Source: Deltaproteobacteria bacterium
GTDB lineage: Bacteria; Desulfobacterota; Deferrisomatia; Deferrisomatales; BM512
Assembly (NCBI GenBank): GCA_002869015.1
Contig: PKTT01000023.1
Location: forward strand, 1 to 64,000
Direction of reading: 5' to 3'
Length of the DNA stretch: 64,000 nt
A program made the position numbers and the translations under genes. A model generated the notes under the pieces. That model made no database searches, was not told the origin of the DNA, and saw only the letters and a list, made by a program, of their open reading frames with translations. Below, in pieces: positions 235 through 38,494 of this stretch; position 1 is the stretch's first letter, and every line of letters starts with the position of its first letter.

Positions 235-822
235 ATGGGCATTTCAGAAAAAAATCTATCCAAAGAGGAATACCGGATTCTCGTTGAGCAGGCCCCTATT
301 ATGATTTGGAGAGCCAATACGACTACAGAGTGTGATTATTTCAACGATGTTTGGTTGTCGTTTACCGGCAGAACCTTGGAAGAGGAGGTTGGTAACGGGT
401 GGGCTGAGGGGGTGCACAAGGATGACTTTGACAGATGTCTTGAAATTTACCTGACCTCATTTGATAAACGTGAAATTTTTGAGATGGAATATAGGCTTCT
501 CCGCCATGACGGTGAATATCGTTGGATATTTGACAGGGGCGTACCATTTTACAATGGGGATGGTTCTTTTGGTGGCTACATCGGGAGCTGTATTGATATC
601 AATGAACAGGTTTTGGCAAGGGAAAGCCTTCTAAAAGAGAAGGATGATGAAATCATGACCCTCAGTGATCTGGTGCCTATCTGTATGCACTGCAAGAATA
701 CAAGGGACGATAGGGGGTATTGGGAGAGGGTCGAGTCATTTGTAAGCAAGAAAACCAAATTCAAATTTTCACACGGAATCTGCCCTGATTGCGCAGAAAA
801 ATACTATGGCGGCATATCGTAA
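235..822 (+). CDS. PAS-domain protein with C-terminal cysteine (zinc-like) module
   Basis: The protein has 195 residues. Residues about 10-130 form a PAS/PAC fold of the PAS_3 type, with the typical RHDGEYRWIFDRGVP strand and a closing GSCIDINEQ. A short helix leads to a C-terminal module, LVPICMHCKNTRDDRGYW ... HGICPDCAEKYY, which has one CxxC and one CPxC pair. This module often follows PAS, GAF or receiver domains in bacterial signalling proteins and looks metal-binding, but its function is not established. There is no output domain and no membrane segment, so it is probably a soluble sensor or adaptor. The ATG follows TTGAGG at a normal distance. A related module occurs at the N-terminus of the protein at 37976-38494. 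Confidence 0.8.
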   Translation: MGISEKNLSKEEYRILVEQAPIMIWRANTTTECDYFNDVWLSFTGRTLEEEVGNGWAEGVHKDDFDRCLEIYLTSFDKREIFEMEYRLLRHDGEYRWIFDRGVPFYNGDGSFGGYIGSCIDINEQVLARESLLKEKDDEIMTLSDLVPICMHCKNTRDDRGYWERVESFVSKKTKFKFSHGICPDCAEKYYGGIS

Positions 823-9680: not shown

Positions 9681-10883
9681 TTGAGCGCCTTGCCGAGAAA
9701 AATATTCTACCCATTTCTATTTCCAGGAGGCCTGATTTGGGCCGCAGCCATATTGCTCTTCCTCTATGGAGATGGGGCCATAGTATCTCACCCTGTCGTT
9801 TCTTGGTTGCCGATTATCGTGCTGCTTTTGAGTCTCTTTATTGGGTGGCGCTTTAACAGGGGAAAGCTGCCACTAGTAATACTGCTCGTATACGCAGCCT
9901 CTTATCTACTCGCTGAGTCCCAAAGCCTTTTAGGTGGAGACTTAAACGCTACTATTTCAATCCTGCTGCCGCTAAATTATGCGCTCCTTGCTTTTGGCTC
10001 GGAGAGAGGTTTCTTTTCACTGGCGCTCTTACTTAAAGCATCCTTCATTGTATTGCAGGCCGGTGCGGTATTGCTTCTTCACAGGGTTTTGGGAGGGGAC
10101 TTTCACAGCTACATAGCTTTTTCGCCGGTTGCACATCCTATCTTTGATGGTATTTGGATGCCGCAGCTTGGTCTGGCTGCTTTTCTCGCGACAGCAGTCC
10201 TTATGCTGCTTAGATTCCTGGCTCGAAAGACGGCTGTGGATGCCGCCTTGTTCTGGGGCATTGTATCGCTTTTTTCGGGGATGATTTATGGAGGCGCGCC
10301 TCTCTTTTTCTCGGCGGCAGCGCTGCTGCTTCTCGCGGGGCTGGTTGAGGGCTTTCACTTCCTCGCATTTAGGGATGAGCTGACCTCATTGCCTACCCGC
10401 CGCGCCTTTAACGAGACTCTTTTGAGTTGCAAAGCGCCAACTACAGTCGCCATAGCTGATATTGACCACTTCAAAAGGGTCAATTACCGCTATGGCCACG
10501 ATGTAGGCGATCAGGTTCTCAAGATGGTCTCCTCCAGACTCTCAAGGGTTGGCGGGGGAGGGAGGGCATTTCGCTACGGTGGAGAAGAGTTCGCCCTTAT
10601 ATTCCATGGATCAAAGGGTGAGAGTGCTAAAGATGAGCTTGAGGAGTTGCGTGCCGCCATCTCATCGACCCCATTTGTTTTAAGGGGAATCCTGAGGCCG
10701 ATATCCTCCTCCTCATCAAGAAACAGGAGCAAAAAAAATCCTAGGCCGCTAAGGGTAACCATTTCGATAGGTTTTTCAGAGGTAAGGGAGGGGGACCAAT
10801 CCCCTGTAGATGCGGTGACCCGTGCGGACAAGGCTCTCTACAAATCTAAAAAGGGAGGGAGAAATAGGGTTACAGGCGGTTGA
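9681..10883 (+). CDS. Membrane diguanylate cyclase (GGDEF)
   Basis: 400 residues. The first 230 hold about seven hydrophobic helices with no large soluble loop, a membrane-embedded sensor of unclassified type. The GGDEF domain follows (about 235-400) with DELTSLPTRRAFNE, DIDHFKRVNYRYGHDVGDQ and the active-site GGEEF at 300-304, so c-di-GMP synthesis is expected. The inhibitory I-site RxxD five residues before GGEEF is absent (the region reads LSRVGGGGRAFRY), so product feedback may be lost. A serine/arginine-rich insert (ISSSSSRNRSKKNPRP) lies before the last strands (VTISIGFSE). The TTG start has AGGAG nine bases upstream. Transcribed alone. Confidence 0.9.
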   Translation: MSALPRKIFYPFLFPGGLIWAAAILLFLYGDGAIVSHPVVSWLPIIVLLLSLFIGWRFNRGKLPLVILLVYAASYLLAESQSLLGGDLNATISILLPLNYALLAFGSERGFFSLALLLKASFIVLQAGAVLLLHRVLGGDFHSYIAFSPVAHPIFDGIWMPQLGLAAFLATAVLMLLRFLARKTAVDAALFWGIVSLFSGMIYGGAPLFFSAAALLLLAGLVEGFHFLAFRDELTSLPTRRAFNETLLSCKAPTTVAIADIDHFKRVNYRYGHDVGDQVLKMVSSRLSRVGGGGRAFRYGGEEFALIFHGSKGESAKDELEELRAAISSTPFVLRGILRPISSSSSRNRSKKNPRPLRVTISIGFSEVREGDQSPVDAVTRADKALYKSKKGGRNRVTGG

Positions 10884-19925: not shown

Positions 19926-20549
19926 TTAGGGGGTGTTTAGAGGGGAGTGATCTCGTAAAAGCCTCAGGAGCTCTGCGCGAGAGGAGACGCCCATCTTCAT
20001 ATAGGCGCTTTTAAGGTGTGATTTGATTGTGTGAACCGTTACAAAAAGCTCCTCTGCGAGCTCTGCGTTGCTCTTGCCGGTAAGGTAGAAGGCTTTTAGT
20101 ATCTCGACCTGTCGCATCGTTAGGGAAAATTTATCTTGAATATCCCCCCAGTCCGGTGAGTGGTGCAAAGGCACCTCGGTTGACAGGACGCGCATCACCG
20201 TTTCCGTGAATTCCTCCATGGTAAAAGGCTTCGCTAGAAAATCGGCAGCTCCCCGCCGGAGACACGTTACAGCTGAATCGAGGGTTGCATAAGAGGTGAT
20301 TGCGATCACCTTTGGGGGTGTACGCGGGAGTTCATTAATGCGGGCCATGAGGGTTGGGCCATCGATGCGGGGCATCATGAGGTCGGTGATCACCAGATCA
20401 AAGGTGTTTTCGCTCATCAGGGATAGCGCCTCAGCACCGTCGTGTGCAGTGGTAGCATTGTAGCCTGCACCCTGGGCTATCTCCTTTAATTCTCTTAGAA
20501 GGAGCACATCATCGTCACAGATTAGGATGCTTACTTTCTGTTCCTTCAA
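19926..20549 (-). CDS. Response regulator, receiver plus LuxR-type DNA-binding domain
   Basis: 207 residues. The receiver has the acidic cluster CDDD, phospho-acceptor Asp56 (LVITDLMMPRIDG), a conserved Thr/Ser (AITSYA) and Lys (LAKPF). The C-terminal helix-turn-helix (about 140-200) reads LTMRQVEILKAFYLTGKS and TVHTIKSHLKSAYMKMG, the NarL/FixJ type. No histidine kinase is adjacent, so its donor is elsewhere. It starts seven bases after the diheme lipoprotein gene and is therefore its operon partner. Confidence 0.88.
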   Translation of the reverse strand: MKEQKVSILICDDDVLLLRELKEIAQGAGYNATTAHDGAEALSLMSENTFDLVITDLMMPRIDGPTLMARINELPRTPPKVIAITSYATLDSAVTCLRRGAADFLAKPFTMEEFTETVMRVLSTEVPLHHSPDWGDIQDKFSLTMRQVEILKAFYLTGKSNAELAEELFVTVHTIKSHLKSAYMKMGVSSRAELLRLLRDHSPLNTP

Positions 20550-20556
20550 CTCCAGC

Positions 20557-20964
20557 TCACTCCTTTCCCCAAGGGTGGGGGAATCCGCCTAGCCGCTGTC
20601 GGTGTTCGGGGGTGGGCGCCCTGTGACAGAGAAAACACTGAACGCCGGATTCAGTAGGCTCTACCGCCTCCTGCGCATCATCGCCCAAGTATACGCTCAA
20701 CTTCGCCTCCGGGGTATCCTGGTGAACTGGAAGGGCCAGCACCTTCTCCTTATAGCCTTCGGAGATGCCTGGGCCACCCTGAAAGCCTGGGTCCGCAGTC
20801 GTGAAAACAGCGCTCCAATCGCCTCCTATGTCAGCTTTATGGCATCTGTCGCAGCCGCCGGGAGGTGGTATCTCCATCATCATGTGTTCACCGGCGCAGG
20901 CCATGAAGAGGCTTGCCGAAACTGCCCACGCAACTGTAACTAGAAAACGCCAAGTTACATTCAT
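20557..20964 (-). CDS. Diheme c-type cytochrome lipoprotein
   Basis: 135 residues from the ATG at 20964, with GGCGGAGG just upstream; the longer frame from 21072 lacks a ribosome site and would bury the signal peptide. The lipobox FMACAG places a lipid anchor at residue 23. Two heme-c sites are visible: CDRCH soon after the anchor and CFLCH near the C-terminus (VQCFLCHRAPTPEH). Additional His and Met residues (EHMMMEI) may serve as axial ligands. It could carry electrons in the periplasm or sense redox state. The response regulator follows after seven bases, an unusual pairing. Confidence 0.8.
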   Translation of the reverse strand: MNVTWRFLVTVAWAVSASLFMACAGEHMMMEIPPPGGCDRCHKADIGGDWSAVFTTADPGFQGGPGISEGYKEKVLALPVHQDTPEAKLSVYLGDDAQEAVEPTESGVQCFLCHRAPTPEHRQRLGGFPHPWGKE

Positions 20965-21080
20965 TGAAACCTCCGCCGGGAAAAAAATCATCTGGTCCCG
21001 GTTAATCGCACATCGGACCCGATGATGGGTTGAAAGGTAAGAGCGCGATCGCTTATAAATAAAGTTTGCCATTAAAAGAT

Positions 21081-23581: not shown

Positions 23582-25969
23582 ATGGCATTCATATCGTGGG
23601 AACGGAAGAAGATCGCATCCGGTGAAGGTGGTGCCGGAGGAAAGTTCGGATCGCGCTTGGCGTTGATAACGCTGGTCTGCGCCATTGCAACAGCCGTTGT
23701 CGCCCCATCCATAACAACTTCCCAAAAAATTTACAAAGAGGGGGACATAGCTCCCGATGCGGTCAAGGCCACCAGGGATTTTTTGGTTGTCGATGAGGCC
23801 GCTACAGCGGCGCAACGCGCTGAAGCGCCGCTCCTCGTCCCTAAGGTGTATGACCGCGCCGCAGACCCTCTCTCCGCCACCCTTGAAGTCCTCGATGAAT
23901 CATTCTCTTTGGTCAAGGCGCCTACTCCGCAGCCCATCGCCGAGGGCACCGAAACAACAGCCCCGGTGGAGCCCCAGCCATCAGAACAGGATGCCCCAGA
24001 TCCGTTGGCGGCGAGCCGAATATCAAAGCTCATGGAGGAGCGCTGGTCGCTGAATATATCCGATCAGCTGGCGGCTGACCTGGCGGATGAGACCAATCGC
24101 AAAGAGCTGAAAAATCTTGTCACTGCGCTATTGGCGCCGCTATTTGAGGGCGGGGTTGTAGCTAACCGTGACCTCCTTGTCGGTGACGCCGGTCATGGAG
24201 GCGGAGTTATAGTAAGGGGTGTGGGCGGCGAGGGTGAGGGTATCCTAAAAGACCTCTCCAAGATCACAGACTACGATACTGCGCGCAGGGCGCTGGCCGG
24301 TAAGAAAGTTAAGACGGTCGGAACCCTGGACAAGTTGTCCGGGCTTCTTAGCGCGGCGCTTTTAACCCCCAACCTCATTTACAATCAGGAGGAGACCCAG
24401 GCGAGAAGAGAGGCGGCCGCCGAGGCTGTTAGCCCAATCCTCTATCAGGTTAGACGGGGCGAGATGATAGTGAGGGAGGGCGACAGGGTCTCCGAGGTTC
24501 AGGCTAAGAAGCTGTTGGCGCACGCAAAAGGTGAGGGTGACGGCGCATCCCGGTGGAGCGGCTACATTGCGCTTATGTTTGGCCTGACCCTCTTGACGAC
24601 CCTCTTAATGGAGTTCGGCCGGGTAAATATCAAAAAGGTCCGCACCGGCTCGAAGGACATGCTCTTTACGACAAGCCTCTTCCTGGTGCTCCTTATATTG
24701 CAGCGCCTTGGCCTTGGACTCGGAGCTCACCTGGACACCGGCATGGGCGATTTTATGCGCTTTGCAATGCCGATGGGCGCGGCGTTTATAACTATGAGGA
24801 TGGTCCTTAACTCCGAGACGCTAGCGATCTTTTTCCTGCCTTTTACGGTGGCGGCAGCTGTTGGCGGCGGGTTGACCAGCGGCTTTTTTGTGCCCCTTAT
24901 CTTTGGTGGTCTCACCGGGGCGCATCTGGCCGGCGGCGCCGGAAGAAGGATGGATTTTCTAAAAATTGGCTTTATCGTAGGCGTAGCTCAAGTTGTAGGG
25001 GTAATGCTTGTAGCACTACATAAGGGATCGCTCTTTACTACGGATGCGCTATGGCCTATGGGCGGCGCCTTTGTCGGCGGCTTGGTAAGCGGTCTTCTTG
25101 CCTTGAGTCTCGTACCGTTGGCGGAGACAATCCTGGATTACACCACGGATATGCGCCTTATGGAGCTAGCCAGCCTCGACCATCCCCTGCTAAAGGAGCT
25201 CCTGATCAGGGCTCCGGGTAGTTACCACCACTCCGTGGTTGTCGGCACTCTGGTAAAAGCCGCAGCCGAAGCAATCGGCGCCAGGGCGGTACTTGCGATG
25301 GTCGCCTCCTATTACCACGATATAGGCAAAATAAGAAAACCCGCATATTTTATTGAGAACCAGGGTGGCGGTAAAAACCCCCATGACAAATTATCGCCGC
25401 CGATGTCGACCCTTGTAATAACTTCACATGTTAAGGACGGGGTGGAGCTTGCCGAAAAGTATAGACTAGGCAAGGACATAGTGGACATTATCAGTCAGCA
25501 TCACGGCACCCGCCTGCTCCATTATTTCTATGACAAAGCAAAGGAGGGAGCAAGGCCGGGTGTAGATGGGGTGAGCGAGGTCGAGTACAGCTACTCAGGG
25601 CCCAAACCCCAAAGCCGGGAAGCGGCGCTGGTGCTGCTCGCCGACGTCGTTGAGGCGGCGACGAGAACATTGCCCACAGCAAACCAGTCAAGGGTGCAGG
25701 GCGCTGTGCAAACGATGATAAACAGGGTCTTCGCTGAAGGGCAGCTTGATGAGTGCGACCTCTCATTAAAGGACCTTCACCAGATAGCGAGGAGCTTTAC
25801 CCTCATCCTCACGGGGATACACCACCAGCGCATCGACTATCCGTTGCCTGTGCAAAAAGAAAAGAAGGAAGATGGAGATCTGGCTGAGAGACGACAGTCC
25901 GAAGGGATGCGTGGACGAGGGGAGGCTCCTCAGGAGGGCGAAGAGAATCTCAAGCGCCTTGGGATATGA
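23582..25969 (+). CDS. pgpH: 7TM-HD phosphohydrolase (PgpH/YqfF type, probable c-di-AMP phosphodiesterase)
   Basis: 795 residues with the full 7TMR-HD layout: an N-terminal helix (about 25-45), an extracytoplasmic domain to about 310, seven helices (about 320-520), and a cytoplasmic HD domain with SYHHSVVVGTLV, YYHDIGKIRKPAYF (the HD pair), ITSHVKDGVELA and ISQHHGTRLLHYF. Homologues in Firmicutes hydrolyse c-di-AMP. In this lineage the gene usually precedes ybeY and a corC-like gene, as here. Its last 98 bases also encode the start of ybeY in another frame. Whether this organism makes c-di-AMP cannot be told from the window. Confidence 0.88.
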   Translation: MAFISWERKKIASGEGGAGGKFGSRLALITLVCAIATAVVAPSITTSQKIYKEGDIAPDAVKATRDFLVVDEAATAAQRAEAPLLVPKVYDRAADPLSATLEVLDESFSLVKAPTPQPIAEGTETTAPVEPQPSEQDAPDPLAASRISKLMEERWSLNISDQLAADLADETNRKELKNLVTALLAPLFEGGVVANRDLLVGDAGHGGGVIVRGVGGEGEGILKDLSKITDYDTARRALAGKKVKTVGTLDKLSGLLSAALLTPNLIYNQEETQARREAAAEAVSPILYQVRRGEMIVREGDRVSEVQAKKLLAHAKGEGDGASRWSGYIALMFGLTLLTTLLMEFGRVNIKKVRTGSKDMLFTTSLFLVLLILQRLGLGLGAHLDTGMGDFMRFAMPMGAAFITMRMVLNSETLAIFFLPFTVAAAVGGGLTSGFFVPLIFGGLTGAHLAGGAGRRMDFLKIGFIVGVAQVVGVMLVALHKGSLFTTDALWPMGGAFVGGLVSGLLALSLVPLAETILDYTTDMRLMELASLDHPLLKELLIRAPGSYHHSVVVGTLVKAAAEAIGARAVLAMVASYYHDIGKIRKPAYFIENQGGGKNPHDKLSPPMSTLVITSHVKDGVELAEKYRLGKDIVDIISQHHGTRLLHYFYDKAKEGARPGVDGVSEVEYSYSGPKPQSREAALVLLADVVEAATRTLPTANQSRVQGAVQTMINRVFAEGQLDECDLSLKDLHQIARSFTLILTGIHHQRIDYPLPVQKEKKEDGDLAERRQSEGMRGRGEAPQEGEENLKRLGI

Positions 25970-26318
25970 TGACGCGGAGATATCCCTATGGATTTGTGAC
26001 GATGAAACCATAAGGGGCCTGCACGATCAATACTTCGGCCTCGACACACCAACTAATGTAATCAGTTTCTCCCAACGGGAGGGAGAATTCGACGAAGTTG
26101 AACCAGACCTCCTAGGTGACGTCGTAGTGAGCTTTGAAACAGCGGCTCGCGACAGCGTCGAGGCGGGGCACTCCGTCGAGGATGAGATAACCTTCCTCTT
26201 TATTCACGGCTTCCTCCACCTCATAGGTTTTGACCACGAGGGCGAGCGCCTTTGTGACGCACCGGAGATGGAAGCCAAGGAGGAGGAGCTCTTTAAACTT
26301 GTCAGGGAAATGGATTGA
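25872..26318 (+). CDS. ybeY: Endoribonuclease YbeY
   Basis: 148 residues, the normal length. The zinc-binding signature HGFLHLIGFDHE is complete, and the conserved NVISFS precedes it. YbeY is a metal-dependent RNase for 16S rRNA 3'-end maturation and ribosome quality control. The ATG at 25872 lies 98 bases inside pgpH with GGAAG upstream; the family's N-terminal strand would be lost at any later start, so the overlap looks genuine. The next gene starts at its stop codon (TTGA overlap). Confidence 0.92.
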   Translation: MEIWLRDDSPKGCVDEGRLLRRAKRISSALGYDDAEISLWICDDETIRGLHDQYFGLDTPTNVISFSQREGEFDEVEPDLLGDVVVSFETAARDSVEAGHSVEDEITFLFIHGFLHLIGFDHEGERLCDAPEMEAKEEELFKLVREMD

Positions 26319-27181
26319 CGGTGGCTGAAGGCGAAAGATCATTTTTAGGCAGGATAATCGCGAAATTTAAGGGAGAGCGCGGCGAACGCGACCTCGTTCG
26401 CGAGATGGAGGAGCTCATAGAAGAGGGCTCCGCAGAGGGCCTCATAAACTCCGACGAAGGGGAGATGCTCCTCTCCGTGCTTGAGTTTCGCAGCACCCTC
26501 GTAAGGGAGATAATGATACCCCGCACAGAGATGGTGTGCGGGGAGGTGAACGCATCGGTGGGTGAGATCATAAAGCTGATGATTGAGGGGGGGCACTCCA
26601 GAATACCAATCTATGAGGGTGACGTAGACCATGTAGTTGGAGTTGTCCATGCGAGAGACCTGCTCGAATTCTGGGGCAGCGAAGATAATAAAATCTCTTT
26701 GGTGCAGCTTATAAGGCCCGCCTACTTCGTTCCGGAGACGATGGCGATTGAAAACCTCTTGCGCGAGCTGAGAGATAGAAAAGTTCACATGGCTATTGCC
26801 GTCGATGAGTATGGGGGAGTATCCGGCCTCGCCACCCTTGAGGATGTGATTGAGGAGATAATCGGCGATATCCAGGATGAGTGGGATGATGAGGATGAGC
26901 CGATGGTTAGAGAGCTCTCCGACGGGTATGAAGTTGACGGGCGCTGCGAGATTGAGGAGCTTAACGAGGCTATAGGAGTAGAGATGGAAGCTGACGGTGA
27001 GTTCGAAACTGTTGGCGGCCTGGTCTTAGACGAGCTTGGACGCGTTCCTTCTCCGGGTGAATCCTTCACCAAAGGGGACTTTGACTTTGTGGTCCGCGAT
27101 GCGGATAAGCGGCGAGTGAAGTCAGTTATGATTAGGCGGCGAAAGGGGTCGGGGGGAGCCGAGGAAGATGGAGAGGGATAA
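26315..27181 (+). CDS. CorC/HlyC-family CBS-domain protein
   Basis: 288 residues: a short acidic start, two CBS domains (about 65-195; MIPRTEMVCGEVNASVGEI, HSRIPIYEGDVDHVVGVVHA in parts, VDEYGGVSGLATLEDVIEEI) and a C-terminal CorC_HlyC transporter-associated domain (DGRCEIEELNEAIG, ETVGGLVLDELGRVP). There are no membrane helices, as in CorC. Such proteins are linked to Mg2+/Co2+ resistance and envelope integrity, and are commonly coded beside ybeY. TTG at 26315 overlaps the ybeY stop; GTG at 26321 is an alternative. It overlaps the CheR gene by 14 bases. Confidence 0.88.
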   Translation: MTVAEGERSFLGRIIAKFKGERGERDLVREMEELIEEGSAEGLINSDEGEMLLSVLEFRSTLVREIMIPRTEMVCGEVNASVGEIIKLMIEGGHSRIPIYEGDVDHVVGVVHARDLLEFWGSEDNKISLVQLIRPAYFVPETMAIENLLRELRDRKVHMAIAVDEYGGVSGLATLEDVIEEIIGDIQDEWDDEDEPMVRELSDGYEVDGRCEIEELNEAIGVEMEADGEFETVGGLVLDELGRVPSPGESFTKGDFDFVVRDADKRRVKSVMIRRRKGSGGAEEDGEG

Positions 27182-28928
27182 AGCTAGAATTATAGCAGTC
27201 GCCCAGAGTAAGGAGCGCGCGCGCCAGATAGCGGAGTTGGTCAACCGCACCTCATTTTCCGCCATACACACACACGATCTTTTGGGCGCCTTATTCCATG
27301 AGCCAAACCTCTTAATAATCGATCCCACCTCCTGGGAGAGCTCCTGCAGGATGATTCTTGAGGAGTTTGAGAGTAGGGACTATCCTCCTCCAGCGGTATA
27401 TTTAATAGGCGGCGGGTTGGAGCTTGCCTTCTCCGCAGGGCCTGCTCTTGGTGTAATTAGCGATGACGAACACCCCTTCACCTTAGGTGAGAAGATTCGG
27501 ATGGCGCTGGCCGCCCAACGTATCTTCGCCTCTTCATGGAAGCGCCTTAGAAGTGCCTTTGAAAAACATTTTATGGACCGGACTGAGAAGCTTCTATTGG
27601 AGCGAACAGGGGTGCGAGTCCGGGAAGACCGCCTCTTGGCGCTCAGAAGAGCGATCTTCGCTCGCGGGATCGCCAGGCTTTCAAACAGCCCCCAAGAGCT
27701 TGAGCGTTGCCTCGCGGACCCTTCGGGTGAGCTTGACCTTTCCATCCTCGTGACCCGCGTTGTCGCCCCAGAGACTTATTTTTGGCGTTATTCAGGCCAG
27801 ATGAATGCGCTTAAAAAACTTTTGGAAGGGCGCTGCAAAGATGGTTCCGATGAAATTAAGGTGCTCTGCGCCGGATGCTCAACCGGTGAGGAGGCTTACT
27901 CCGTTGCCTTTGCCATAAAGGAGGCTTTCGGTGGTGGCGCAGACTTTCATGTTTGGGGAACAGATATAAACCTCCACGCAATTGAGGTCGCCAAAAGAAG
28001 GCGCTATACAAATCATTCAGTCAGAAACCTGCCGGAGCGCTTTATAGGCCGCTGGATAGTTCGGGATCAGGAGGAGTGGGTCGTCTCTGAAGAGCTTGAG
28101 CGCCATGTCACCTTCGAGGGGATGAACCTCCTTGGAGGGGACACTGAGAGCTGGCTTAAGGAACACGGGCCCTTTGATGCAATCTTTTGCCGCAATGTGA
28201 CCATATATTTCGACCCTGCCAAGACTAGGCTACTGCATGAGCTTATGACCTCCTCAATCGCAAATGGAGGAGGATATTTTCTCGGTTCCTCCGAGATGCT
28301 CCTAAAAATTCCCGATGGTTTTACAGCCGTTCATGATTCGGGCTCTTTCTACTACCTAAAGAGTGATGCTATCTCTGCCGTAGAGGAAGAGGCGCGATTG
28401 GCCGACGAAGAAGCTGAATTGGAGGTAAAGGTTGACGCAGCCTACCGAAGCGGTCTCCGTGCCCTGGCAAAGGAGGACACCAGAGGAGCCAGCGACGCCT
28501 TTTCGGAGCTTGAAAAGCTCTCCCCCAATGACCCCCGCACAATGACCGGCGCGGCGGTGCTGCTCTCCAACGAGGGGAGAGAGAAGGAAGCGCGTGAGAA
28601 AGTTCTTGTAGCTCTGGAGTGCGAAAAGGTGCCGGCGGAAGCCTTCTTCCTTGCCGGTCTCCTTGAAGAGAGGCAGGGGCACGATAGCGAAGCGCTCTCC
28701 ATGTATGGAATGGCGCTAGGGCAGGATGAAAACTTTTTCATGGCGCATGTCAACCGTGCGTGGATACTTCGCAGGCGGCAATGTATCAAGGCTTTCAGGA
28801 AAGAGATGGAGGCTGCACTTGAGATACTGCGAAAGAGCCCTCAGAAAGCCTCCTGGGCAACGGGCGGACTTGGGTTCGACACAATTTTAAGGATGGTTGC
28901 CGACGCCCTCGCAGAGGAGCCTAATTAA
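27168..28928 (+). CDS. CheR-type methyltransferase with N-terminal pseudo-receiver and C-terminal TPR
   Basis: 586 residues in three parts. Residues 1-120 resemble a receiver domain (LLIIDPTSW) but lack the acidic pair on strand one. Residues about 130-410 are CheR: VVAPETYFWR, VLCAGCSTGEEAYSVA (SAM loop, from 232), WGTDINLHAIEVAKRRRY and FDAIFCRNVTIYFD. Residues about 430-586 form TPR-like helices (RGASDAFSELEKLSPND, DPRTMTGAAVLLSNEGREKE, VNRAWILRRRQC). CheR with TPR is the WspC pattern. It methylates chemoreceptor glutamates, here probably those of the receptor encoded two genes downstream. First gene of the chemosensory operon, reached through from corC by a 14-base overlap. Confidence 0.88.
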   Translation: MERDKARIIAVAQSKERARQIAELVNRTSFSAIHTHDLLGALFHEPNLLIIDPTSWESSCRMILEEFESRDYPPPAVYLIGGGLELAFSAGPALGVISDDEHPFTLGEKIRMALAAQRIFASSWKRLRSAFEKHFMDRTEKLLLERTGVRVREDRLLALRRAIFARGIARLSNSPQELERCLADPSGELDLSILVTRVVAPETYFWRYSGQMNALKKLLEGRCKDGSDEIKVLCAGCSTGEEAYSVAFAIKEAFGGGADFHVWGTDINLHAIEVAKRRRYTNHSVRNLPERFIGRWIVRDQEEWVVSEELERHVTFEGMNLLGGDTESWLKEHGPFDAIFCRNVTIYFDPAKTRLLHELMTSSIANGGGYFLGSSEMLLKIPDGFTAVHDSGSFYYLKSDAISAVEEEARLADEEAELEVKVDAAYRSGLRALAKEDTRGASDAFSELEKLSPNDPRTMTGAAVLLSNEGREKEAREKVLVALECEKVPAEAFFLAGLLEERQGHDSEALSMYGMALGQDENFFMAHVNRAWILRRRQCIKAFRKEMEAALEILRKSPQKASWATGGLGFDTILRMVADALAEEPN

Positions 28929-28933
28929 AAAAA

Positions 28934-29482
28934 ATGAGCAAGGCGGGTTTCAAGAACCGGTTCAGCGAGGAGGAGCGCCTTCGCTTCTGGGCCGAGATGG
29001 AAGCAAGGGCGGAGAAGCTAAAAGAGCCCGATGGCGACCCGCATCTTGTATTCAAGGTTGGTGGAGCGAGCTTTGCCATTGACGCGACACTATCCCTTGG
29101 GGTGCTTCCCTGGACCCAGCCGACCCCGCTGCCCTTTCTCCCTAGGCACTTGAAGGGGGTCACATTCCTGCGCGGGCGGATAATATCAGTGACTTCGCTA
29201 GCTGTTTTGCTCGGCGTAGAGCCTAGCGCAAAGCCCAGCTATTACGTGATAGTAAAAGCTGGTGAGCTGGAGACTGCCCTGGAGGTCGAGGGTGTTGAGG
29301 CGGTGCTTTCGATTGACTTAGAAAAAGTCGATAGTGCCAAAGGCCTATGGAGAGGAGCGAGGATAGGGCTTGTAACGGGGCAAGCGCCGGAGCGGGTTCC
29401 GCCTATTTATATCATTGACGTTGAACGATGCCTGAGACAGAGGGCAACGGTTGAAACATTTTCTGGAGGGTTGAATGATTAA
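28934..29482 (+). CDS. cheW: CheW-type coupling protein
   Basis: 182 residues. The CheW fold occupies about 35-175: [40 protein letters not shown] (the GxxxxRGxIxxV strand pair) and [20 protein letters not shown]. The N-terminal 30 residues are charged and helical, longer than in canonical CheW. It bridges the chemoreceptor and CheA. Its stop overlaps the receptor start by eight bases, so the pair is co-translated. Only one CheW is present, against two (WspB, WspD) in the Pseudomonas Wsp system. Confidence 0.88.
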
Positions 29483-31112
29483 CTTCATGAAGAAGAGCCT
29501 GACAGTGAAGGTTACCTTCGCAATCATCACGATGATGATCATTGTCTTCGGTCTAATGGGTTGGTATTCGCTCAAAAGGTCGAGCACCACCATCGCCGAG
29601 ACGGAGATGAGGTGGAACAAACACTTCGCCTTCTTTGTCGATGACGTGATGCAGCACTATATGCAGGACAATGACCCGGAAGGGTTGGAGCATTTCATAA
29701 GCGAGGCTTCAAAGTCCAGCGGCTTTAAAATGCTGAAAGTCATAAACGCTGATAAAGAGATAAGTTTTTCAAATGAAAGAGATGAGATAGGGCGCTTTAC
29801 CGCTAACCCGGAGGTAGCGGCGCTGTTGCTGGAGGTAGAGCGGACAAGGCAGCCCGGGACAATTTTGAATGGCTCCATAAGTATAACAGCGGTGCCCCTT
29901 ATAGCTGATGAGGGCTGCTCGGTCTGCCATCCCCCCTACGGCAGATATCTTGGTACGACTGTGATAGGCAGCGATATTTCTGAGGCAAACGCAAATATCA
30001 ACAACATATTTTTTGAGGGAACATTTCTCTTTGTCGCGGCGCTCCTGATAATCATAGCCGTCCTCTACTTTTCAATGAGAAAACTGGTTCTTTCGCCACT
30101 TTTCAGGCTCGTACGGGATGCAAAAAAAGTTTCTCAGGGCGACCTTGCGCACCGTTTCAGGCTGGAGAGTGAAGATGAGATGCGTGAACTGGCGGACCAC
30201 CTCGAAACCATGCAGTCACAGCTGCGCTCGACCATAGCTGAACTGGCTGATGTCAATAACTCAATTGTCGGCGCTATCGATGAGTTGGATACCTCCAGCG
30301 AATCTTTGGTCGGCCTCTCAGCGGAGCAGGCTAGCGGAGCCGCCGAGCAGGCCGCCGCTGTGCATGAGGTCACCACCTCTGCGCAGGAGATCGCGACTAC
30401 CTCGGCGCAGATATCGGCAAACGTTGAGTCGATCAGGAAGATGGCGGAGGATGCCTTTGACGCGTGCCTCCAGGGCCGCAAGGACGTTAAGGATGCCATC
30501 AACGGGATGAGCTTGGTCCGGGACAAGGTGAGCTCTATCTCGGAAGCCACCGTTGAGCTTGGGCGAAAATCACATAAAATTGGTGGTGTCATCTCAATAA
30601 TCGACGAGATATCAGAGCAAACGCACCTCCTTGCCCTAAACGCAGCTATTGAAGCCGCCGGGGCGGGCGAGCATGGAAAACGCTTCGGAGTCGTTGCCAC
30701 AGAGGTGAGGCGTCTCGCCGAGCGTACAGTGGAGGCGACGGCTGAGATAAAGGCGCTGATTGAAGAGATACAGGAATCAACTAACGAAACTGTGATGATA
30801 ACCGAACGCGGCTCCGATATCGTGCGTGATGGCACCTCCAAGGTCGATCTTGTCGGTGATACCCTTGAGACACTTAGCAAAAGAGTTGAGATGACAAAGG
30901 AGTCTGCCAAGGAGATGGCGATAGCGACCCGGCAGCAAGCTACCGCCGGGGAGCAGCTTGTCCTCACCATTACAGATATAAACTCGGTCGCTGTTCAGGT
31001 GAGCCGCGCGGCAGAGAAGGTGGAGAAGAACGCCATGGGGCTAAAATCCATCTCCCTTAAATTAAAAGAGCTAAGGGAGAGGGCGCAGTTGCTGGACAAG
31101 TACAAGCTCTAG
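29475..31112 (+). CDS. Chemoreceptor with periplasmic heme-c site
   Basis: 545 residues. Membrane helices at about 12-32 and 177-200 enclose a 145-residue periplasmic sensor. In it the motif CSVCH (Cys148, Cys151, His152), followed by [10 protein letters not shown], is a covalent heme-c attachment site. HAMP follows ([20 protein letters not shown]), then the coiled-coil signalling domain with tip [20 protein letters not shown] and [20 protein letters not shown]. Glu/Gln-rich helices supply methylation sites for CheR/CheB. It resembles the redox/oxygen-sensing heme receptors of Desulfovibrio (DcrA) and Geobacter in principle. No C-terminal CheR-docking pentapeptide is present. It should feed the hybrid CheA downstream. 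Confidence 0.9.
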
Positions 31113-31123
31113 GATGAGCGCCT

Positions 31124-33220
31124 ATGCTTGAGCAGTCCAAGTATATAGAGATATTTCTCGATGAGGGGAGAGATATTCTATGCTCCCTGGAGAAGGAGCT
31201 CTTAGCCCTTGAGCGGGACCCCTCATCCTTTGAGGCTATCTCCACGGCGCTCAGGCTTTCGCATACCTTGAAGGGCTCTTCAAGGATGGTTGGGCTTGCC
31301 GGCGTCAGCAATGCCGCTCATGGCATAGAAAATATTCTCGAGATGCTCGGCTCCTCAAAAGAGGATGTATCCGGGGATGACTTCGCATTTGTCTTTGACG
31401 TCATAGACAAAATCAAATCGCTCTTCGAGTCCATCTCAGCGGGCGAGGTCTCAGACCTTGAGATGGACTTTCCAAACATTGCGACCAAAGAAGGGGCGAA
31501 GAGCTTCGAAGAAAAAGGTACCAAAGAGCAGAAGGCACCTAATAAATCCACTGCCAAAGGTATCCGCAAACCTCTCCTTTCCCTTGATTTGGATAGCGCA
31601 GATAGCGCCCCATCCAAGAGGCTTGGTGACGCGTTAAGAGTCAGGCTCGAAAAGTTAGACTCCTTGATGGAGGAGCTTGAAAATGCCACTGTCGCCTCCC
31701 GTAACCTCGCAGATCGCATTGCCTCGATTTATCCGGCAGCTCAGAATACCGAAGACAAGTTCTCCTCTGGAGCGTTAAGGGTTGAGAGTGAGCGTTTGGA
31801 GGCTTTGGTCTCCAGCGCGAGAAACGCTGTGGTTGAGATGCGAATGCTGCCTGTTGCGTCTCTCTTTGACCAGTATCCACGGATGGTGCGTGACATAGCG
31901 GCAGACCTTGATAAAGAGGTAGAACTTAAAATTGAGGGTGGTGACCTTGAGCTGGACAAGCACCTCATGGAGGATATATACGGCTCTTTGACCCATCTTG
32001 TAAGGAACGCCCTCGACCACGGTATTGAGAGGCCCGATGAAAGAGCCTTACGAGGTAAGGAGCGGGGAGGCGTTATATCACTCAGAGCCTATCAGCGGCC
32101 GGGGGCAGTGGTTGTAGAGGTTGAAGATGACGGCAACGGGATTGACGCCGATACTTTGAGGAGCGTTGCTATTAAGAAGGGTTTCTTGCAACCCTCGGAA
32201 GCTCAAGCCATGGAGGATGAGGACCTATTCTACCTTCTTTTAAAGCCTGCTTTTACAACTCGCCGTGAAGCGGATCAGCTCTCGGGTAGGGGCGTTGGGC
32301 TTGATGTAGTGAAAAATATGATTGACTCTGTACACGGCACAATGACAATCAAAAGTGAAAAGGGTAGATTCACGCGCTTCAGTCTCTATCTTCCGAAATC
32401 CTATTCAGGCCTGAAGGGAGTCGAGGTCATTTCTGGCGGCGTGCCGGTCGTCATTCCCACGCTCTTTGTGGAAAAGTGCTTTACCGTTGGCGCTGAAGAG
32501 TTTCAGCGGCGTGATGGCCGCGTAGCATATCTGGGAGAGAAGCTACACCTCGTAAGCCTTGGCCTTCTTCTCGGAAGAGCAGTTGAGGATATATCAACTG
32601 GTATTGAGGTTCTAGTCCTGCGTTTCAGGGATAGACGGATGGCTCTTGCTGTTGAGAGTGTTGTAGGCGATGCGGAGTTTCTCCTCAAGGGTACGGGCAG
32701 GCACCTTGAGGAGGAGGGAGCGTCCTTGCTTGGCATTACAATTACAAGGGAGGGTATACCAGCCCCTGTATTTGATGTGCGTTATCTCGCGGAGCGTTGG
32801 GCCGGGTTGGAGTTTTCCTGCCGCGTTCCCCTGCCAAAGGTAAAGCGAAAACTCAAGATCCTGGTGGTCGATGATGCATTGACTTCTTTGCACGTTATCT
32901 CCTCCTTTGTAGGAGCTATGGGGCACAGCGTCTTTCAGGCACACGATGGGGCCGAAGCTTGGAGCATGATGGAGGATTACCCCGTCGACCTGGTCGTGAC
33001 TGATATGGAGATGCCCGAGATTGACGGCATTGAGTTGACCAGGAGAATAAGGCGTAGTGAGTGGTTCAAAAAGACGCCGGTAGTGATGGTGTCGGTAAAG
33101 GGCGAAGAGACGATTGTCAGCAGAGCTTTCGAGGCGGGGGCAAATGCCTTCATCCACAAGGAGCGGTTGGATGGGGCCAGCCTTGAGAAGACAATAAAGA
33201 ATCTCTTGCCCGATATTTGA
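31124..33220 (+). CDS. CheA-type hybrid histidine kinase with C-terminal receiver
   Basis: 698 residues. Hpt domain at 1-110 with phospho-acceptor His47 (LRLSHTLKGSSRMVG); a variable linker to about 165; dimerisation helices; ATPase (about 285-430) with LVRNALDHGIE, VEDDGNGID and GRGVGLDVVKNMID; a CheW-like domain (about 435-570); and a receiver from about 577, with Asp583/584 and phospho-acceptor Asp627 (VVTDMEMPEIDG). No CheY/CheB-binding P2 domain is apparent. The CheA-REC architecture is that of WspE. The fused receiver may act as a phosphate sink or a target for tuning. It starts 11 bases after the receptor. Confidence 0.92.
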   Translation: MLEQSKYIEIFLDEGRDILCSLEKELLALERDPSSFEAISTALRLSHTLKGSSRMVGLAGVSNAAHGIENILEMLGSSKEDVSGDDFAFVFDVIDKIKSLFESISAGEVSDLEMDFPNIATKEGAKSFEEKGTKEQKAPNKSTAKGIRKPLLSLDLDSADSAPSKRLGDALRVRLEKLDSLMEELENATVASRNLADRIASIYPAAQNTEDKFSSGALRVESERLEALVSSARNAVVEMRMLPVASLFDQYPRMVRDIAADLDKEVELKIEGGDLELDKHLMEDIYGSLTHLVRNALDHGIERPDERALRGKERGGVISLRAYQRPGAVVVEVEDDGNGIDADTLRSVAIKKGFLQPSEAQAMEDEDLFYLLLKPAFTTRREADQLSGRGVGLDVVKNMIDSVHGTMTIKSEKGRFTRFSLYLPKSYSGLKGVEVISGGVPVVIPTLFVEKCFTVGAEEFQRRDGRVAYLGEKLHLVSLGLLLGRAVEDISTGIEVLVLRFRDRRMALAVESVVGDAEFLLKGTGRHLEEEGASLLGITITREGIPAPVFDVRYLAERWAGLEFSCRVPLPKVKRKLKILVVDDALTSLHVISSFVGAMGHSVFQAHDGAEAWSMMEDYPVDLVVTDMEMPEIDGIELTRRIRRSEWFKKTPVVMVSVKGEETIVSRAFEAGANAFIHKERLDGASLEKTIKNLLPDI

Positions 33221-33264: not shown

Positions 33265-35301
33265 ATGATTAGGGTACTTATTACCGATGATTCTCGGCTT
33301 GTAAGGGGCGTCCTCAGGGAAATTATAGAGGATGACCCCGAGATCACTGTAATCGCTGAAGCATCCAATGGCGCCGAGGCGGTAGAGATATGTATAAAGG
33401 AGCGCCCTGACGTAGTTTTAATGGACGTTCAGATGCCTGTGATGGACGGCATCGAATCCGTCAGGCGCATAATGCAGTCTGCGCCCACTCCGGTTATAGT
33501 GCTTTCAGCATCCGTTAAATCAAGCGAGACTCGCTCTGCATTCGCTGCGCTATCCGCAGGGGCAATAGATGCAATTGCAAAACCCCACGGCATAGTTTCA
33601 GCTGATACGTATAGCTCCATAGCCGATGACATCATAGGCAGGATCAAGCTTTATGCTAGGGTAGCAAAAAAAGGTAAGCTGGATACCGAAGAGCATCCAC
33701 GGAACAACGAACAAATATCATCTCCCGCAATTTCCTCAAGCGTAATTGCCATTGGCGCTTCTACCGGAGGCCCCAGAAGTCTCTCCGCGCTGCTTTCAGC
33801 TTTAAAACCCGATTTCCCTTGCCCGATACTTTTGGTTCAGCACATAAGCGAGGGCTTCATGCGTGGCTTCTCCGAGTGGCTGGGCAGGGAAATCTCTTTG
33901 GAGGTGGTGATTGTAGACCATGCGATGAGGCTGGAACCCGGCCGTGTTTACCTGCCCCCCGACGGGTACCACCTTGAGGTCGCAAGAGGCGCTGCCGTAT
34001 TGAGTGAAGCTCCTCCGCTGCATGGATGTCGCCCGGCTGTTGATGTGCTCTTTAAATCCCTAGCGGAGGAATATGGGGAGAGAGCTATTGGTGTAGTTCT
34101 AACCGGTATCGGAGTCGACGGCGCCGCAGGCGCGGCGGCAATAAAGGCTGTCGGTGGTATGGTGATAGCGCAGGATGAAGAGTCCTCGGTTATCTTCGGA
34201 ATGCCCAAAGCGGTTATAGAACGCGACGCCGCGACACATGTCGCAAGCCTTCAAAATATGCCCAAGTTGCTAAGTGAATTGGCAAGCGCTCATGCAGATG
34301 ATAACGGCGGGCTCTTCGGCGCCTCGCAGCGGGTAAACGAGGTCCTAGTGGTCGATGACAGCCCTACGATGAGGGCTGTGCTATACGATATTTTAACCGC
34401 ACACGGGCATAGTGTGCGCCAAGCTGAGAATGGGCGCCTCGCTTTGCAGGAAATCTCAAGGCAAGAGCCGGACCTGATAGTGCTGGATGTGATGATGCCA
34501 GAGCTTGATGGCTACTCCGTTTGCCGTAGAGTGCGTGAGGATTACGGCTATATACCCGTGCTAATGGTTACCGCCAAGGGCTCTTCAGAGGATATGGTCA
34601 GGGCCCTTGAGGCCGGGGCCGATGATTGTATTGCCAAGCCCTTCGAGCCGATGGAGCTCTCCGCCAGGGTTCAGTCGCTCCTTCGTATACGCTCATTACA
34701 CCAACGGCTCTTTACGCAAAATAATGAATTGGAAGCTAAAAACAGAGAGCTAGAGCGGCTCGCCCGCGCGCTTAACCGCGCCAACAAAGAGCTGACCCTG
34801 CTCTCCGTCACAGATGGGTTAACCAAGGCTTACAACCATCGCCATTTCCAGGAGCGTTTCAAGTCTGAATTTGCCCGCTCCGAGCGTTATGGGACTTTGC
34901 TCTCCATAATCCTGATCGACATTGACCACTTTAAAAGAGTTAATGATAACTACGGACACCCCGTCGGCGATCAGGTGCTCATCCATCTTGTTGAGGTGCT
35001 TGAGGAGTCAGTACGAAAAGAGGACCTTGTCGCCAGGTATGGCGGCGAGGAATTTATCTTGATGCTCCCGGAAACCTCAGGCCCCAGGGCGCTCCTCTTG
35101 GCTAAGAGAATCAGAGAGAGAATCGAGCAGAGCGAGGTGGTGATAGATGCCTCACTTTCGGTCCGCTATACGGTGAGCCTTGGGGTATCCTCCTATGAGC
35201 CGGGGGGTAAGGTGCAGACGGCAGAGGCGCTCATTGCAAAGGCCGATTCGGCCCTTTACAGCGCAAAGGCAAATGGTCGCAACCGCGCAGAGATGGCTTG
35301 A
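33265..35301 (+). CDS. CheB methylesterase fused to REC-GGDEF diguanylate cyclase
   Basis: 678 residues, four domains. REC1 1-125 (Asp54, VLMDVQMPVMDG). CheB methylesterase 157-345 with catalytic Ser166 (GASTGGP), His193 (VQHISEGF) and Asp285 (GIGVDGAAG). REC2 358-475 (Asp408, IVLDVMMPELDGY; Lys458). A coiled linker (about 478-512) leads to GGDEF 515-678 with DIDHFKRVNDNYGH, active site GGEEF 593-597 and an intact I-site RKED at 584-587. REC-CheB is the WspF layout and REC-GGDEF the WspR layout, here in one chain. It should both demethylate the receptor and make c-di-GMP when CheA phosphorylates its receivers. An AT-rich 44-base gap precedes it. Confidence 0.93.
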   Translation: MIRVLITDDSRLVRGVLREIIEDDPEITVIAEASNGAEAVEICIKERPDVVLMDVQMPVMDGIESVRRIMQSAPTPVIVLSASVKSSETRSAFAALSAGAIDAIAKPHGIVSADTYSSIADDIIGRIKLYARVAKKGKLDTEEHPRNNEQISSPAISSSVIAIGASTGGPRSLSALLSALKPDFPCPILLVQHISEGFMRGFSEWLGREISLEVVIVDHAMRLEPGRVYLPPDGYHLEVARGAAVLSEAPPLHGCRPAVDVLFKSLAEEYGERAIGVVLTGIGVDGAAGAAAIKAVGGMVIAQDEESSVIFGMPKAVIERDAATHVASLQNMPKLLSELASAHADDNGGLFGASQRVNEVLVVDDSPTMRAVLYDILTAHGHSVRQAENGRLALQEISRQEPDLIVLDVMMPELDGYSVCRRVREDYGYIPVLMVTAKGSSEDMVRALEAGADDCIAKPFEPMELSARVQSLLRIRSLHQRLFTQNNELEAKNRELERLARALNRANKELTLLSVTDGLTKAYNHRHFQERFKSEFARSERYGTLLSIILIDIDHFKRVNDNYGHPVGDQVLIHLVEVLEESVRKEDLVARYGGEEFILMLPETSGPRALLLAKRIRERIEQSEVVIDASLSVRYTVSLGVSSYEPGGKVQTAEALIAKADSALYSAKANGRNRAEMA

Positions 35302-36838
35302 CCTAAGGGTACCCGCCCTGGCGGCGTGGGGTGCCTTTGTAGGCGCCGCCGCGTTCGCTCCCGTAGGCTGGTGGCCCCTTGCCATGATTGCCCTCGTCCC
35401 CCTTTGGACAATTGCAATGACCGAGGGCCCGAGGCGCTGCGCTTTATTCGGTTTCTCATTTGGCGTGGGCTTTTTTTGCGCCTCCCTATATTTTTTAATC
35501 GAGACCCTTCGCGTGCACGGCTACATGGCGCTGCCGTTGGCTCTCTCAACCTACCTCCTGCTAGTATTTTATCTTTCGCTCTACCCTATGCTCTCTACAG
35601 CGCTAATAGGTTATGTCGCTAAAGTAAGCCCCGCTATAGCGCTGGTTGTTGCCCCCTTTGCATGGACCGGCTTTGAATGGCTAAGGGGTGAGGTCATCAT
35701 CGGTTTCCCTTGGGGAGATCTGCCGATGGCTCTTTGGCGTCTACGAACGGCGCTTGACCTTGCTCCGATATTGGGGGTTGGCGGCGTTCGCCTACTTATG
35801 GCCTCAATTTCAGTGGCGGGTGTGTTCATCCTGCTTCCGAAAAAGACCCGGCAGGGCGCGCGCTACGCTTTAATATTGCCTTTGGCCGCTTTGGTGCTCT
35901 CCTTAGCGCTGCCAAAAGCCGTGGAAATTAAAAGCGAGGTTCTCGGCAAGGGGGACATCGCCATAATTCAGGGGAATATCCCCCAAAGCGAGAAGTGGCT
36001 ACCCGGTATGCGCCAGGAGACGCTTAACCGTTACCGCCGCTTAACCCTTGATGCGGTAGCTGGTACTCCACCTGATTTTATCCTCTGGCCGGAGACCGCC
36101 ATGCCTTCGAGGGTTCCCGTCGGTTCAAGCGGGCGACGTTTTGTTGAGAAACTGGCCCGGTCGGCAAAGAGCTCAATAATCTTTGGCGCTCCTTCTAATG
36201 TCTACAAAGATGGCGGCGTAAAGGAGTCAAGAAATTCTGTCTATGGCGTTACCCAAAATGGGAATTTCACTGGACGGTACGACAAGGTAAAGCTGGTGCC
36301 TTTCGGCGAGTACGTCCCCTTTGAGCGCTACCTGCCCTTTGTAAAGAAAATTTCAAGTGCTGCGGGAAACTTCAGGCCGGGAGAGGGATTCTTGAGCCTG
36401 CCGCTGGGAATCACCGAAGATGCGCGAAGAGTTGGGTCATTGATCTGCTTTGAATCGCTATTCCCAGCCTTCGCCACCGCACAGGCTAGAGGAGGTGCCA
36501 ATATTTTAGCTGTGGTCACCAATGATTCATGGTTCGGAGACTCTTCAGCCCCCTCAAGGCACCTCGCCTACTCTGCGTGGCGGGCCGCGGAGAACGGCCT
36601 CTGGCTTATAAGAGCGGCAAATACTGGAATAAGCGCTATATTTGATGAGCGCGGCGAACTCATAAAGTCCACATCTCTGGATGAGACTACCTTCTTGAGG
36701 GGGGAGGTCGAATATAGAGCAAGCGAAGGTTTATTACAGGGCGCTCTAAGGCCTTGGGTGGAGCTCACCTCACTTCTCTTGGCTATAATAGCCCTTTTTG
36801 GTATTCTACGGCTCCGCCGCGCTGAAAGCAGCGGGTAA
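35273..36838 (+). CDS. lnt: Apolipoprotein N-acyltransferase
   Basis: 521 residues from ATG 35273, which overlaps the end of the CheB-GGDEF gene by 29 bases; the longer frame from 35180 adds only a non-homologous Arg-rich stretch. Six or so N-terminal membrane helices are followed by a periplasmic carbon-nitrogen hydrolase domain with the catalytic triad Glu (WPETAMPS), Lys (YDKVKLVPFGEYVPFE) and Cys (GSLICFESLFP), and a last membrane helix. Lnt adds the third acyl chain to lipoproteins, and the window encodes several substrates. Presence of lnt supports a Gram-negative envelope. Confidence 0.92.
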   Translation: MVATAQRWLDLRVPALAAWGAFVGAAAFAPVGWWPLAMIALVPLWTIAMTEGPRRCALFGFSFGVGFFCASLYFLIETLRVHGYMALPLALSTYLLLVFYLSLYPMLSTALIGYVAKVSPAIALVVAPFAWTGFEWLRGEVIIGFPWGDLPMALWRLRTALDLAPILGVGGVRLLMASISVAGVFILLPKKTRQGARYALILPLAALVLSLALPKAVEIKSEVLGKGDIAIIQGNIPQSEKWLPGMRQETLNRYRRLTLDAVAGTPPDFILWPETAMPSRVPVGSSGRRFVEKLARSAKSSIIFGAPSNVYKDGGVKESRNSVYGVTQNGNFTGRYDKVKLVPFGEYVPFERYLPFVKKISSAAGNFRPGEGFLSLPLGITEDARRVGSLICFESLFPAFATAQARGGANILAVVTNDSWFGDSSAPSRHLAYSAWRAAENGLWLIRAANTGISAIFDERGELIKSTSLDETTFLRGEVEYRASEGLLQGALRPWVELTSLLLAIIALFGILRLRRAESSG

Positions 36839-36867
36839 TACTCTCTCGTAAGCGAGGTTCAATATAG

Positions 36868-37966
36868 ATGACCACACCAGCAAAAACCATAGAGCTTGCC
36901 AGCCGCCTTCAAGACCTGTGGAGGCACCTTTGACCTCTCTACAAAAGAGGCTCGCTTAGAGGAGCTTGACGAGATGATGGCCCGTCCCGACTTCTGGGAT
37001 GACCAGGAGGGCGCGGAGGTCGTCTCCCGCGAGCGGATAAGACTAATAGAACAATTGGAGCTTTGGAAGCGGCTAAACTCAGAGGCAGAGGATTGTCAGG
37101 TTGCCTTTGAACTTCTCTCCGAGGTTGAGGACCCTGAGCTTAGGGGGGAGACTGAGTCGCGCGTGGAGGCTCTGGAGCGGGAGGTCTCCGCGCTGGAGTT
37201 CCAGAAGATGCTCTCTGGTGAAAATGACGAGAATGACGCAATTCTCTCAATAAATGCGGGCGCGGGGGGTACAGAGGCACAGGATTGGGCGGAGATGCTC
37301 TTTAGGATGTATATGCGTTGGGCGGAGGCTAAAGGGTATGACGTTTCCATTCTTGACCGCCTTGATGGAGAGGAGGCGGGGATAAAGTCCGCTACGTTGT
37401 CAATCTCCGGCAACCACGCTTATGGTTTCTTGCGTTCCGAGCAGGGAGTTCACCGTCTTGTCCGTATAAGCCCCTACGATTCGCAGGCGCGCAGGCATAC
37501 CTCCTTCGCTTCGGTGTCTGTCCTCGCAGACGTGATGGAGGATACAACTGTCGAGGTTGACGAGGGAGACCTCAAGGTCGATGTCTTCAGGGCAAGTGGC
37601 GCAGGAGGCCAGCACGTAAACAAAACTGAGTCCGCGGTGAGGCTCACCCACATCCCCACAGGCATAGTCGTCAGTTGCCAATCTGAGCGAAGTCAGCATA
37701 AAAACAGGGCGAACGCAATGCGAATCCTGAAGGCACGTATCAAGGATCATCAACAGTCGATTCTCGACGCACAGCGTGCGGAGGTTGAAGCCGAGAAGAA
37801 GGAGATTGCCTGGGGCAGCCAGATTCGCTCTTACATTTTACAGCCCTACCAGAAGGTCAAGGACCACCGCACAGGGGTTGAGGACGGCAACGTTACGAAG
37901 GTGCTTGATGGTGGGATAGATGAATTTATAGAGGGATTTCTGCTTGGTCAAACGGAGGAGGCTTAG
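36868..37966 (+). CDS. prfB: Peptide chain release factor 2, programmed +1 frameshift
   Basis: The gene starts at ATG 36868 and runs 21 codons to an in-frame TGA (36931-36933) in the context GGAGGCACCTTTGAC. Ribosomes shift +1 at CTT and continue as DLSTKEARLEEL, giving a product of 365 residues. The rest is standard RF2: the GGQ motif in SGAGGQHVNKTESAVRL, and the stop-codon recognition region SPYDSQARRHTSFASV, with SPY in place of the more common SPF. RF2 reads UGA and UAA, and the frameshift autoregulates it. Gene callers would report only the 3' frame from 36896. Confidence 0.93.
36922..36934 (+). promoter_or_regulatory. prfB programmed +1 frameshift signal
   Basis: AGG(CAC)CTTTGAC: an internal Shine-Dalgarno-like GGAGG (36920-36924) three bases before the slippery CTT, then TGA C. 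The layout is as in Escherichia coli prfB. Confidence 0.92.
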
Positions 37967-37975
37967 ATAGAGGCG

Positions 37976-38494
37976 CTAACCGGATACTATAGGTGGCTCC
38001 GCGTCTTTTATCGTTAAAACTACAAGGTCCCCCTTCTTTATCGTTGTAATGCTGATGTAAATACGCTCGACTCCTCTTTGGGTCCTAATCTCCTGAAAGC
38101 CTCTGGCGTCTATCACGTCACGACCCGTCTTGTAAGTTATCTCAACGGAGCTTTTAATTACACAGGCGCCGCAATGCTCTGTTTCTCCGCAGCCATTTTC
38201 ACTTTCAGCATGCTTGCACTGGATGAAGTCGCCCCCAAGCTCGCCTCGGTAATTTCCCCTGTTTTTGCTTGATAGCTTCAGCGCATGTTCATTGGCGTAT
38301 AGGATGTGTCTACCTCCATCCATTAGCACTACAGGTACATCCATGGATTCGAGAAAGGTGTCGAGGTGGGTTGGGAATTCAGCTTTTAGGAGGGCAAGTT
38401 TACAGTCGGGGCAAATGCCATGTGAGATGCCGTCTCCCTCTATCTCGGTATCCGCTGAAAGGCTTTTTTTGCACCAAGCGCATATTTTGTACAT
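37976..38494 (-). CDS. Cysteine-rich PAS-type protein with N-terminal zinc-like module
   Basis: 172 residues. The N-terminus (ICAWCKKSL ... GISHGICPDCK) is a CxxC...HGICPDC module, the same type that ends the PAS protein at 235-822. Residues about 45-165 form a PAS-like domain (FLESMDVPVVLMDGGRHILY, ANEHALKLS) with a cysteine cluster, CKHAESENGCGETEHCGACV, common in PAS proteins of anaerobic bacteria. The clustered cysteines could bind iron-sulfur, zinc or respond to redox. There is no output domain, so it may regulate by protein contact. It converges with prfB. Confidence 0.75.
   Translation of the reverse strand: MYKICAWCKKSLSADTEIEGDGISHGICPDCKLALLKAEFPTHLDTFLESMDVPVVLMDGGRHILYANEHALKLSSKNRGNYRGELGGDFIQCKHAESENGCGETEHCGACVIKSSVEITYKTGRDVIDARGFQEIRTQRGVERIYISITTIKKGDLVVLTIKDAEPPIVSG

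Follow-up and report, generated by a model that had tools for sequence, protein, structure and literature searches.

A predicted heme c chemoreceptor that probably controls c-di-GMP through a Wsp-like operon in a deltaproteobacterium

The Wsp pathway of Pseudomonas (WspA to WspF and WspR) serves surface sensing, with WspR activated via WspE phosphorylation. One operon encodes its parts: an MCP, CheW, a CheR with a TPR region, a CheA with a receiver (REC) domain, CheB, and a REC-GGDEF protein. What does the receptor respond to? As late as 2022, a review called the stimulus of WspA a mystery (PMC8846402).

Heme-bearing chemoreceptors have been described separately. The Geobacter proteins GSU0935 and GSU0582 (PDB 3b42 and 3b47; Pfam family PF21563, “sCache_heme”) are MCPs with a periplasmic Cache/PAS-like domain, a CxxCH motif followed by LG, and a Met as distal heme ligand; in the literature searched they are discussed for motility. 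The axial ligands of the GSU0935 heme are H144 and M60, and the Met coordinates the heme in its reduced state and is displaced upon oxidation or by NO/CO (PMC8396549). DcrA of Desulfovibrio, compared here through its description in the literature, is an MCP with c-type heme for which sensing of O2 or redox has been proposed. Heme c MCPs and Wsp-like pathways are therefore both known already; a heme c receptor within a Wsp-like pathway was not found in the literature searched, which covered few subscription journals. The receptor described here is probably a heme c redox (or NO) sensor that controls c-di-GMP in a cell without flagella.

The operon and the layout of its receptor

The window, a 64,000-nucleotide stretch from a Deltaproteobacteria bacterium (contig PKTT01000023.1), carries a che operon set between housekeeping genes, with the following features.

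23582..27181 (+): PgpH-like HD protein, YbeY and CorC-like protein; conserved, syntenic housekeeping neighbours upstream
27168..28928 (+): CheR methyltransferase (PF01739, 1.1e-39) with a C-terminal TPR region (weak, below cut-off); WspC-like
28934..29482 (+): CheW coupling protein (PF01584, 1.1e-16), overlapping the receptor gene by 8 bases
29475..31112 (+): predicted heme c MCP, 545 residues, ATG start, open frame
29661..29663 (+): codon of Met63, which corresponds to GSU0935 Met60 and would be the distal heme ligand
29916..29930 (+): codons of C148-S-V-C-H152, the predicted site of heme c attachment with the proximal His; counterparts in GSU0935 are C140/C143/H144
31124..33220 (+): hybrid CheA (WspE-like) with Hpt (LSHTLKGSS), HATPase, CheW-like and C-terminal REC domains
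33265..35301 (+): fused REC-CheB methylesterase-REC-GGDEF protein (WspF and WspR in one), with GGEEF and an RxxD site
35264..37966 (+): Lnt and PrfB; conserved, syntenic housekeeping neighbours downstream

The gaps from CheR through CheW, receptor and CheA to the CheB fusion are 5, -8, 11 and 44 bases. The operon proteins have the Hpt histidine, the kinase boxes, the phospho-acceptor aspartates, the CheB catalytic motifs, GGEEF and RxxD. The operon encodes no stand-alone CheY; its only regulators are the RECs of CheA and of the CheB-REC-GGDEF fusion. A CheR with TPR and regulators with added output domains typify alternative cellular function (ACF) pathways (PMC3447774), and, judged by its domain make-up, the operon encodes a Wsp-like ACF pathway, with CheB fused to the diguanylate cyclase. 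It shares with Wsp the full set of components listed above, the TPR match being weak, and, most likely, an output other than motility. There are also differences. WspA has a 4HB sensor domain, whereas the receptor here has a predicted heme c Cache domain; Wsp has two CheW proteins (WspB and WspD) and this operon one; and in the receptor's family CheB and REC-GGDEF are a single protein.

To briefly describe the cyclase, its REC-GGDEF half matches both PleD and WspR along its length, with PleD scoring better. A Hypr (cGAMP-type) GGDEF was ruled out, as the GGEEF motif is retained along with the Asp of GHxxGD, which we take to be the residue meant by the published rule for such enzymes (PMC6456294).

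The receptor has the build of a transmembrane MCP: TM1 at about 12-33, a single-Cache sensor at about 35-175 that is predicted to be periplasmic, TM2 at about 176-200, HAMP at 202-251, and the MCP signalling hairpin. The reverse strand of 29475-31112 holds no full-length open frame. By hydropathy the protein has membrane segments at two places, within about 7-34 and 175-210, which agree with the helices of the original prediction (12-32 and 177-200), and its placement of Cys148-Ser-Val-Cys151-His152 between them is borne out by sequence and hydropathy alike. HAMP and MCPsignal (322-505) both score above the Pfam cut-offs, and because of where they lie in the protein, the CxxCH stretch should be on the periplasmic side. 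Homology likewise supports the proposed coupling of the receptor to the operon's CheA. As for heptad class, 36H was rejected, since the hairpin's N-terminal arm exceeds that of Tsr (36H) by about 21 residues in the alignment.

Kinship of the sensor and its predicted heme ligands

Is the CxxCH motif likely to hold a heme? The receptor has only three cysteines (C148, C151 and C331), and when its sequence is shuffled 200,000 times with the composition preserved, CxxCH arises by chance in a fraction of 1.65e-4. The best solved relative of the sensor by sequence is 3b42 (GSU0935), a weak match at E 0.017. An AF2 model of the sensor, built from six loci and with heme absent, has a Cache-type fold, with a pLDDT of 73 that falls to about 53 near the CxxCH. 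Foldseek matches this model to 3b42 with E values of 2.4e-5 and 1.4e-4 and probability 1.00. The model superposes badly on 3b42 (rmsd 14), plausibly owing to the domain-swapped dimer in the crystal; a domain swap has been described for the GSU0935 sensor crystal (PMC8396549). The PF21563 profile gives 19.9 bits for the whole receptor and 21.4 bits for its first 240 residues, below the cut-off of 27, though it matches 10/10 orthologs at E<=1 (best 5.2e-7). Matches of the orthologs to sCache_3_2 are weak. Membership in the Tll0287/DUF3365 family (PF11845) was rejected, with no profile match at E<=1 in any of 10 orthologs.

When 30 sensors are aligned with 3b42, C148, C151 and H152 share columns with C140, C143 and H144 of GSU0935, as does M63 with M60. 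The CxxCH is followed by LG, as in the Geobacter sensors. All four are invariant columns in the 10 orthologs, which come from four families of one order. Across the whole alignment, C-X(2-4)-C-H occupies this position in 31/31 sensors, 3b42 included, and the M63 column is Met in 30 of the 31, the exception (L017) having an adjacent Met. Kinship with the Geobacter heme receptors, part of the original prediction, is supported for GSU0935 by both sequence and fold, and the heme c that it placed in the periplasmic sensor gains support from this homology, as a predicted loading. The likeness is a distant one, with identity of <=17% in structural alignments. The setting differs as well: this receptor is encoded within a conserved che operon that includes a diguanylate cyclase gene, and it is the sole MCP of its genome.

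Could the CxxCH instead be a heme-free metal or disulfide site, in a Cache domain that responds, as WspA or WalK might, to membrane stress or a small ligand? The Foldseek ranking is what such a reading would draw on: the heme-free Cache domains of WalK come first and 3b42 next, with 3b47, CitA and DcuS further down. The receptor's PF21563 score under the cut-off points the same way. The spacing of the motif, on the other hand, is variable. CX4CH replaces CX2CH in two orthologs, one in the receptor's family (L013, genome G003) and one in another family (L014, genome G008), and both Cys and the His are kept in each; among more distant sensors, six have CX4CH and one CX3CH. CX4CH heme sites are known from multiheme cytochromes, and the change in spacing is hard to reconcile with a tight metal or disulfide site. 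Met63 and His152, moreover, are invariant and take the places of the two axial heme ligands of GSU0935, the motif is placed in the periplasm, and the genome has heme c assembly genes. A heme-free site is for these reasons very improbable, and we infer that the receptor carries a covalent heme c in its periplasmic sensor.

How would the heme be attached? It had been suggested that the genome be checked for ccm genes. Cytochrome c assembly is indeed present, but it is system II rather than Ccm, comprising ResB and an adjoining CcsB (TIGR03144 above cut-off). A second ResB/Cytochrom_C_asm pair adjoins a multi-CxxCH protein. Separately, the window encodes at 20557-21072 (-) a protein of 171 residues with a lipoprotein-like stretch, two CxxCH motifs (CDRCH and CFLCH) and no Pfam match; a gene next to it (19926-20549) codes for a LuxR-type response regulator.

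What signal might such a heme read? For the Geobacter domains, a redox-linked ligand switch has been proposed (PMC8396549), and for sensors fused to signalling modules, detection of NO (PMC12889525, preprint). The sensor could accordingly be primarily a selective NO (or CO) receptor, in which NO displaces Met63 or water and so sets CheA and the c-di-GMP output. Binding of NO and CO by GSU0582 and GSU0935 is reversible (PMC8396549), and a signal-coupled sCache_heme of P. azotoformans has a tight hold on NO but does not form a stable complex with O2 (PMC12889525, preprint). Against this stand the redox-linked on/off switch of the Met in the GSU domains (PMC8396549) and the want of an NO-enzyme partner among the two families searched in the receptor's own genome, where COX1/NorB gave no match and NrfA only one, below threshold. 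That result is consistent with an anaerobe and lends no support to NO respiration, though NO may still act as a signal. Selectivity for NO or CO is thus a tentative and rather unlikely reading.

Distribution, the single array and its probable output

Nine further genomes from the order retain the arrangement PgpH-YbeY-CorC-CheR-(CheW)-MCP-CheA-CheB-GGDEF-Lnt-PrfB around the receptor, judged as far as each contig or stretch reaches; the short contig of L038 ends inside CheA, and CheW was unmatched in L039 and L041 in this comparison. CheB and REC-GGDEF are fused in the receptor's own family and are separate genes in other families, again where the stretch reaches. Close orthologs of the sensor, as recognised by sequence, appear restricted to one order, probably Deferrisomatales: in the sampled genomes from the rest of the phylum, the best matches weaken to an E value of about 1e-12.

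Within the receptor's family, each of the five genomes searched has one PF00015 (MCP) match, although in G004 a contig end truncates it and it may not be the same gene. FlhA was found in none of these five genomes, and flagellin was not found in the source genome. The seven genomes from elsewhere in the order each carry FlhA and between 10 and 29 MCP matches. Since the family genomes are drafts, 91-100% complete, one absence would be weak evidence; five agreeing absences are not. The CheW-domain proteins of G000, G001 and G003 are the operon's two only (CheW and CheA). In G002, three extra CheW-domain proteins occur (contigs C5 and C22) with one PF00015 match. Might this be a second array with an undetected receptor?

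What, then, is a lone chemoreceptor for? A conventional chemotaxis or twitching receptor would have CheA act directly on flagella or type IV pili, leaving the GGDEF part as an accessory. The receptor is, after all, a bona fide MCP with CheA, CheW, CheR and CheB, and PilB/PilT-like type IV pilus ATPases are encoded in the genome. The missing flagellin and FlhA tell against that role, as does an operon whose only regulators are the two proteins with RECs, making it improbable. The operon's output protein is a predicted diguanylate cyclase, and the genome is without flagellin, FlhA and any other MCP, so the receptor is most likely not for taxis.

The preferred reading, control of c-di-GMP by a heme c sensor, can be laid out as a mechanism whose redox switch is carried over by analogy from the Geobacter proteins. 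The receptor would be a transmembrane dimer with one covalent heme c in a periplasmic Cache domain. His152 would be the proximal ligand and Met63, on the first sensor helix after TM1, the exchangeable distal one. Met63 would be released when the heme is oxidised or binds NO/CO, and the resulting movement would pass via the transmembrane segments and HAMP to the signalling hairpin and alter the activity of CheA-REC. CheA would then phosphorylate the second REC of CheB-REC-GGDEF and in this way set how active the diguanylate cyclase is; adaptation of the receptor would fall to CheR-TPR and to the fusion's CheB portion. The heme loading, the redox or NO signal, the sign of the response, the c-di-GMP output and its targets are all predicted elements of this scheme. 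We give even chances to a broader scenario in which flagella loss in one family left a single array, with the heme c receptor coupling extracytoplasmic redox (or NO) to CheB-REC-GGDEF and one CheA feeding both demethylation and c-di-GMP synthesis in one polypeptide.

Where might the c-di-GMP act? Possible receivers in the genome are ten PilZ proteins and MshEN-type pilus ATPases, and c-di-GMP under redox or gas control would probably act on these. With seven GGDEF matches in the genome, the operon's cyclase is one among several. The window itself holds a second GGDEF protein, at 9681-10883 (+), with its N-terminal region in the membrane.

A comparable arrangement occurs elsewhere in the phylum. 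In a genome from the same phylum but another family (G057), a che cluster (L086, 5825-14256) encodes CheA, a heme MCP, CheW, CheR, a CheD-like protein, CheB and REC-GGDEF. As here, a heme c type MCP accompanies a REC-GGDEF gene; the cluster differs in its gene order, the presence of CheD, a CheA without REC, a CheR without TPR, and a larger MCP. Because it is built differently, the pairing of heme MCP and REC-GGDEF may have more than one origin.

The operon is a Wsp-like system with a predicted, spectroscopically readable cofactor, so that input (heme redox or NO) and output (c-di-GMP) are both measurable in principle. It also suggests why a chemosensory array is retained by cells lacking flagella. 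A tie between redox state and c-di-GMP in cytochrome-rich bacteria would have consequences for biofilm formation, and possibly for the control of pili.

One further pair of genes in the window deserves mention. Small PAS proteins encoded at 235-822 (+) and 37976-38494 (-) have a common CxxCK...HGICPDC segment, which is C-terminal in one and N-terminal in the other.
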